Positions 29,257 to 29,890 of a stretch of 64,000 bases of DNA are shown here, one piece after another. Each line of letters opens with the position of its first letter. The first letter of the stretch is position 1. The translations under genes were made by a program, and so were the position numbers. This DNA is from Candidatus Peribacteria bacterium (lineage in GTDB: Bacteria; Patescibacteriota; Gracilibacteria; UBA1369; LOWO2-01-FULL-3): NCBI GenBank assembly GCA_943357285.1, contig CALRGJ010000002.1:62001-126000 (forward strand). The letters are read 5' to 3'. Below the pieces are notes generated by a model. The model saw only the letters and a program-made list of their open reading frames with translations, ran no database searches and was not told the DNA's origin.

Positions 29257-29285
29257 TTGCTTTTTCGCTAAAAATATTGTATAAT
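29257..29285 (+). promoter_or_regulatory. Strong promoter of the large non-coding RNA
   Basis: TTGCTT (29257-29262), exact 17-bp spacer, perfect TATAAT (29280-29285). Predicted start near 29292. No coding frame follows for about 590 nt. Confidence 0.85.
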
Positions 29286-29291
29286 AATATC

Positions 29292-29890
29292 GTAAATTGA
29301 TCTTTGAAATAAAACAAAAATAAAAAAATACTTTTAGGAAGAGTTGAGTAACTAAATCTCAATTCAGGAGCTTGGTTCATCTGCTCTTCCTAAAACTTTC
29401 CTTCTCATGATGAGTGAGTAAGTTTTGTAGGAAAACCTGATATTAAAGACATTTATGTCTGCGCTTGATACTTCGCAAGAAGTTAGGGATGCTTATCAGG
29501 GATACTTCCCTTTTATGATCATTTTCGAGAAAGCCTCGAAGGATGTTTATAAAAAGAACTGGATTTGATCCGGTTGATGTTTTCTTGGGTGCTAACGATC
29601 TTTATTGCCGCAAGGTTGTAAAGAATGAAGCTCTCAGTGGTTGAGCAAGAATACTAGCAATGGTGTTCAAGCAAAGACCATACGACGTTAATACTATGAA
29701 AGGAAGTCTTTCATCACATTTTCGCCAGTGAAACATTCGCTGTTTATGGGTCGCCGCAAGGTCGCCACGTAAAGCAATTCAGCAGCACATTTATGTGTGA
29801 AGTTTCTTTAAATATCTTACACAACAGGGGGACGTTTTAGGCAAGATGCTATTAAAAGGATCACTATTAAAATAGGTGGTCCTTTTATTT
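29292..29890 (+). ncRNA. Large structured non-coding RNA, class not recognised
   Basis: About 590 nt between a consensus promoter and an intrinsic terminator, with no open frame of 60 codons in any frame. A perfect 12-bp helix (TTTTAGGAAGAG at 29332-29343 with CTCTTCCTAAAA at 29384-29395) encloses at least one hairpin (TTGAG/CTCAA). Further hairpins: AGACA/TGTCT (29447-29460), ACTTC-GCAA-GAAGT (about 29470-29483), GGGA/TCCC, TTCGAG/CTCGAA, AACTGGAT/ATCCGGTT with one G-T pair, GCTC/GAGC, ATGAAAG/CTTTCAT and CAGTGAA/TTCGCTG with one G-T pair. Three GCAA (GNRA) tetraloops (near 29475, 29610 and 29757) suggest tertiary docking. I do not find RNase P, tmRNA, 6S or intron signatures. Details are in the findings. 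Confidence 0.75.
29854..29890 (+). terminator. Intrinsic terminator of the large RNA
   Basis: AAAAGGATCAC pairs with GTGGTCCTTTT, extended by TAT/ATA across one bulge, followed by ATTTT. It also faces the stop of the minus-strand gene at 29885. Confidence 0.88.

Follow-up and report, generated by a model that had tools for sequence, protein, structure and literature searches.

A candidate new class of large structured RNA with competing strands in one order of Patescibacteria

The window, by which we mean the whole 64,000-nucleotide stretch of Candidatus Peribacteria DNA analysed here, holds at positions 29257-29890 (+) the gene for a large structured noncoding RNA that is almost certainly real and the representative of a new class. 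This conclusion follows from the lack of any Rfam match, the finding of RNase P RNA and tmRNA at other places in the genome, the presence of a promoter and terminator at 12 loci, and a conserved, covarying structure. The initial annotation had offered a choice between a very divergent known RNA and a new large class, and the second is favoured by the lack of an Rfam match together with extensive covariation. The novelty meant here is that of the RNA family itself. To our knowledge, very few bacterial RNA classes of such size and complexity have been recognised, and this one would bring in an example from a lineage in which RNA biology has received little study; Patescibacteria have genomes near 1.2 Mb, yet the RNA gene is kept in some genera.

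Gene boundaries and consensus structure

The RNA is about 590 nt long in the window and roughly 570-660 nt across copies, its gene lying between an upstream NUDIX-type gene on the minus strand (named by eye) and a downstream minus-strand ORF of 106 aa that faces it. The promoter and strong intrinsic terminator that had been read from the sequence both hold up, as does the statement that no long ORF lies between them. The -10 box TATAAT (29280-29285) is a perfect match at a spacing of 17 nt; the -35 box TTGCTT (29257-29262) matches the consensus at just 3 of 6 bases, while most homologs have TTGACA or something close to it with the spacing unchanged, and across the 12 copies the spacer measures 16-17 nt with 9-12 of the 12 consensus bases matched. 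The longest ORF within the approximately 560 nt between promoter and terminator spans at most 48 aa. The RNA strand in the window folds with a minimum free energy of -177.9 kcal/mol, where shuffled versions average -138.1 (z -5.5). The features of the gene are listed below, the percentages being the share of alignment cells that are paired.

29257-29285 (+): sigma-70-type promoter (-35 TTGCTT, 17-nt spacer, -10 TATAAT), read from the sequence; in the equivalent place in 12/12 copies
29299-29309 (+): boxA-like element GATCTTTGAAA, a few bases past the predicted start; pattern in 11/12 copies
29332-29343 (+): strand S1 (TTTTAGGAAGAG), the 5' side of helix P1, opposite S2; 12 bp, perfect in the window
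29344-29383 (+): hairpin P1, outer stem and a loop that varies in length; consensus pairs 29333-29354 / 29373-29394
29384-29402 (+): strand S2 (CTCTTCCTAAAACTTTCCT), common to two mutually exclusive helices; pairs with S1 or S3 in 12/12
29404-29418 (+): hairpin P3; 4 pairs, 3 changed on both sides
29422-29432 (+): 5' strand of P4, long-range closing helix with 29815-29825; 11 pairs, 9 changed on both sides, 87.9%
29436-29500 (+): domain closed by P5 (29436-29442 / 29494-29500); P5 95.2%, 5 of 7 pairs changed on both sides
29447-29460 and 29470-29483 (+): hairpins inside the P5 domain, the second with a GCAA cap
29501-29508 (+): 5' strand of P8, long-range with 29799-29806; 86.9%
29509-29556 (+): long hairpin P9 with conserved tip; 19 pairs, 90.4%, 7 changed on both sides
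29557-29584 (+): segment predicted to fold in two ways, locally as a hairpin (29557-29575) or by forming P10/P11 with 29775-29782 and 29730-29742
29586-29636 (+): stem-loop P12/P13, GCAA cap at 29610-29613; 90-92%
29637-29681 (+): P14/P15 stem with GNRA loop 29657-29660; 95-96%, loop GNRA in 12/12
29683-29727 (+): hairpin P16/P17 with conserved AAGU-type loop; 16 pairs, 13 changed on both sides
29730-29742 (+): 3' strand of P11, from the 170-pair consensus
29745-29771 (+): hairpin P18 with GUCGC-type internal motif; 11 pairs, 6 changed on both sides
29775-29825 (+): 3' strands of P10, P8 and P4 and a variable insertion point, from the alignment and consensus structure
29828-29841 (+): strand S3, pairing with S2 at 29389-29402; the pairing can run on to about 29849
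29854-29888 (+): intrinsic terminator, hairpin and T-rich tail, from sequence and fold; equivalent in 12/12 copies

The full-length alignment of the 12 sequences (A6) yields a consensus of 170 pairs in 19 helices, in which 89.4% of cells are paired, against 41-48% when the strands are slid and 76% in shuffles. As to whether the conservation is of the codon or the covariation type, covariation is extensive, with 98 of the 170 pairs changed on both sides and 0/500 shuffles as high, though the 170-pair structure was derived from a near-identical alignment and refolding shuffled alignments is the fairer test. The alifold energy of the 12-sequence alignment is -215, against -53 +/- 5 in column shuffles (z -34). 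Within the region of the refined covariance model R2, 91.3% of pair cells are standard; sliding lowers this to 38-50%, and on none of the measures does a shuffle come as high. A tree-aware, all-against-all covariation analysis, which has low power with 12 sequences, gave no column pair at E<=0.05, while 8/171 reached that threshold when the structure pairs alone were tested.

The architecture comprises the 5' hairpin P1 followed by a multi-branched body closed by the long-range helices P4, P8, P10 and P11 and carrying the hairpins P3, P6, P7, P9, P12/13, P14/15, P16/17 and P18. For the segment at 29557-29584, the two predicted foldings are P11 (13 pairs, 9 changed on both sides) and P10 (8 pairs, 4 changed on both sides) on the one hand and the alternative local hairpin, paired in 78% of cells, on the other. 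The insertion point within 29775-29825 is short in the window and longer in most other copies. The sequences UUUGA (29564-29568) and UCAAG (29667-29671) are complementary and near-invariant, some copies having C-G in place of U-G, and possibly form a loop contact (pseudoknot).

Three GCAA tetraloops had been claimed as hairpin caps; the caps are present, but the window holds four (29475-29478, 29610-29613, 29657-29660 and 29756-29759). The accompanying suggestion that such GNRA loops dock into receptors can apply to 29657-29660, which is the only candidate for conserved docking because it alone is GNRA in 12/12 copies (GCAA, GUGA or GUAA) and which may make a tertiary contact, whereas at the other three some copies have UUCG, AAAA, GCAC or different caps instead (UUCG or AAAA at 29610-29613).

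Strand competition, the boxA-like element and proposed working

The perfect 12-bp helix of the initial annotation (29332-29343 with 29384-29395) proved exact and conserved but not fixed, its 3' strand having an equally conserved second partner near the 3' end. The S1:S2 helix of 12 bp is paired in 93.8% of cells across the 12 copies, with 4 pairs changed on both sides, and the S2:S3 helix, of 14 positions, in 89.3%, with 6 pairs changed on both sides; slid controls reach at most 61% in either case. The two helices overlap on CCUAAAA and are mutually exclusive. An unbiased scan of all columns ranked S2:S3 as the top stem with the most covariation, the copy L028 having a perfect S2:S3 helix of 18 bp, and within clade g3 both S1 and S3 carry changes that match those in S2. 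The triple changes in S1, S2 and S3 come mainly from one clade of four sequences and thus represent few independent events. Predicted duplex energies are alike, at -12 to -21 kcal/mol for S1:S2 and -13 to -27 kcal/mol for S2:S3. Displacement of S1 at transcript completion would be a natural reading, given that S3 is transcribed last ahead of the terminator. The conserved three-strand competition is directly testable. Part of S1 (29338-29348, GGAAGAGUUGAG) also resembles the 5' end of the 16S rRNA of the same lineage (CGAAGAGUUUGAU), a likeness that is probably due to chance.

A boxA-like element, G[ACU][CU]C[ACU]UU[AG]A[AU]A, lies a few bases past the predicted start in 11/12 copies; the pattern was fitted to the copies themselves, and L028 fits it only loosely. 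On both strands of the 64-kb window this fitted pattern occurs a single time, at the RNA gene. In boxA antitermination, the boxA follows shortly after the promoter and is bound by NusB/S10. Leaders of rRNA operons in the same lineages contain GCCCTTTAACA, GTTCTTTAACA or GAACTTTAACA, and in four carrier genomes they have GCCCUUUAACA, GUUCUUUAACA or GAACUUUAACA. The element of the RNA gene resembles the rRNA-operon boxA in its place just after the promoter and, within the same lineages, closely in sequence, but the rRNA leaders have UUUAACA where the RNA gene has UUGAAA or UUAAAA, and the transcript here is not rRNA. The similarity suggests that boxA-type antitermination may act on the RNA gene.

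The reading that we prefer, to which we give about an even chance, is that the RNA folds by strand exchange into a trans-acting scaffold resembling OLE, ROOL and GOLLD. A boxA-type antitermination signal would help RNA polymerase to finish the long untranslated transcript, during whose synthesis the S1:S2 hairpin would form first and hold S2 until S3 emerges. Emerging last, S3 would displace S1, freeing the 5' strand, and S2:S3 would close the molecule into a compact body around the P4/P8/P10/P11 axis. The finished RNA would then act in trans as a stable scaffold, in a complex made either of RNA and protein or of RNA alone, along the lines of OLE, ROOL or GOLLD. The occurrence of promoter and terminator in 12/12 copies and the differing gene contexts between families were counted in favour of a stand-alone RNA, and action in trans fits because no neighbour family is consistently shared across bacterial families. 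The fuller picture of an RNA machine of one ultra-small-bacteria lineage, in which rRNA-like antitermination is combined with displacement of the first-made by the last-made strand and the product builds an RNA-based particle or scaffold, is put forward only tentatively, as less likely than not.

An unlikely alternative is that the switch exposes S1 (AGGAAG...) or S3 for pairing with mRNAs or the ribosome, the RNA being a trans-acting regulator. Because S2 can take only one of S1 and S3 as its partner at a time, one of them is always free, and AGGAAG is invariant in S1; this invariance is, however, explained by pairing with S2, and the conserved structure of the other ~450 nt goes far beyond the needs of a base-pairing sRNA.

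Distribution and gene neighbourhoods

Clear copies with 97%, 83%, 72%, 67% and 66% identity turned up among 60 relatives searched by BLAST, and a further search added one more. A covariance model built on about 29504-29682 (R1) brought the total to 12 loci, 11 of them outside the window, in 11/89 genomes of one Patescibacteria order, a group of uncultured, ultra-small bacteria; the carriers are named Candidatus Peregrinibacteria, Candidatus Gracilibacteria and Patescibacteria. A third model (R3), built on a different part at about 29383-29500, finds exactly the 12 loci of R2. True loci score 122-190 bits with R2, and the best other match in 22 genomes searched more thoroughly scores 17.5 bits. 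R2 was also applied to 353 genomes belonging to the class and to 380 from the phylum, scoring the best few candidates per genome, and gave no new locus outside the order; the RNA class appears so far to be restricted to this order. Phage and plasmid records contained no copy. Three patterns were also searched in IMG/VR: the first gave no match, the second 31 matches with none above background by R2, and the third, a loose one, 39 unscored matches.

Gene order around the RNA is kept within the genera g1 and g3. Across bacterial families no neighbour gene family recurs consistently, except that AbiE-like toxin-antitoxin and Fic-like genes, named by eye, are found a few kb or less from the RNA in three genomes, in the following regions.

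L106 3425-6518: AbiE/Fic-like neighbour region
L111 760-2146: AbiE/Fic-like neighbour region
L109 5517-6590: AbiE/Fic-like neighbour region

In two g3 genomes, a tRNA gene on the opposite strand follows shortly downstream of the RNA (L024 896-967; L026 1161-1232), which recalls the tRNA neighbourhood of ROOL and GOLLD. Genome G082 holds two diverged copies, L027 and L029, that are sisters in the RNA tree (97/96), the bin's contamination of 5% being a possible source. In that tree genus g1 groups with family f15 (98/98), and a single clade for family f1 is rejected (AU p 0.005), results that make transfer, or old paralogy with losses, likely. An empty site in G001, sought through a flanking protein, gave no match.

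These observations bear on the rather unlikely view that the RNA belongs to a mobile or defence element that has passed from lineage to lineage, comparable to retron RNA, omega RNA or a large RNA carried by phage. The patchy distribution (11/89 genomes), the rejection of one f1 clade, the two copies in G082, the nearby AbiE-like and Fic-like genes and the tRNA adjoining two loci all agree with it, although old paralogs with losses would explain the tree too and gene order is kept within g1 and g3. Retron and omega RNAs are marked by an adjacent reverse transcriptase or TnpB/IscB gene; in protein clustering of the neighbours no such cluster recurs beside the RNA across families, nor, the AbiE/Fic-like genes aside, does any other. 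The phage and plasmid records and two of the IMG/VR patterns likewise speak against a mobile element, the unscored matches of the third pattern standing apart.

Known RNA families and comparison with other large RNAs

At Rfam gathering scores the whole window yields only tRNAs, and the RNA region is without a match. A cmscan of 4227 Rfam families at E<=10 gave only chance scores for 29257-29890, far below gathering, with no match to OLE, GOLLD, intron or ribozyme families, and the other copies have no credible match either. This agrees with the earlier impression by eye that the region lacks the marks of RNase P RNA, tmRNA and introns. RNase P RNA usually has one gene per genome, and the copy of this genome lies on contig C19 (132.8 bits), away from the RNA gene; on this and on the lack of a model match in the region, that identity was rejected. 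The hallmarks of tmRNA are a tRNA-like domain and a tag ORF; ARAGORN detects no tmRNA in the window, Rfam none in the region, and the genome's own tmRNA lies on contig C5 (107.9 bits), away from the RNA gene, and this identity was likewise rejected. ROOL was rejected because its model RF03087 has no match at E<=10 in the window or in six carrier genomes, the six-genome search being without a positive control. Searches of the open-access literature found no description of such an RNA in Patescibacteria, Gracilibacteria or Peregrinibacteria, though closed papers or preprints could still contain one.

That the RNA is a ribozyme, as its large, compact form and the near-invariant CAAGA and CAAG in the P14/P15 region might indicate, is improbable, given that no Rfam ribozyme family matched and no substrate is in sight. 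OLE, ROOL and GOLLD have recently been solved as unexpected RNA assemblies, still without clear function. ROOL (Rfam RF03087) is a stand-alone RNA of ~580 nt with a very elaborate secondary structure and unknown function, often near tRNA genes (PMC12286853); the new RNA is alike in size, stand-alone gene and elaborate structure, but it lacks an Rfam match, is absent from the searched phage records, has a tRNA beside two loci only and belongs to a different lineage. OLE, of ~600 nt, is highly structured, with evidence for alternative secondary structures (PMC12286853, PMC12054373), and the new RNA shares its size, high structure and alternative predicted pairings; it differs in having no Rfam match and in its occurrence in Patescibacteria, the hosts of OLE being mostly Bacillota (PMC12054373). 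GOLLD is likewise a large ornate RNA without known function, but is larger, many examples exceeding 800 nt, and is encoded in phages and prophages (PMC12286853), whereas the new RNA matches no Rfam family. It is very improbable that the RNA is a known type in highly divergent form, whether RNase P RNA, tmRNA, ROOL, GOLLD, OLE or an intron: its size and complexity are like those of ROOL (574 model positions) and OLE (~600 nt, PMC12054373), but neither the window nor the other copies match Rfam credibly, RNase P RNA and tmRNA reside elsewhere, and the ROOL model is blank in six genomes, with the lack of a positive control already mentioned. A coding or cis-regulatory region (leader, attenuator or small-protein gene) can hardly be meant, since the short + strand ORFs of 37 and 33 aa that overlap the RNA are set against a terminator of its own, a next downstream gene on the opposite strand, and copies that differ by indels of any length and conserve base pairs.

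The weak BLAST matches L007-L010 and L012 were rejected as copies, what they share being limited to an A-rich stretch like (A)AAACAAAAATAA that precedes or sits in coding genes. At the RNA gene this stretch lies directly after the promoter, at 29310-29331 of the window, and it is also found in the 5' leaders of relatives' protein genes, just before the ATG (L008, L009, L010, L012 near 1501); it looks like a lineage-wide leader element.
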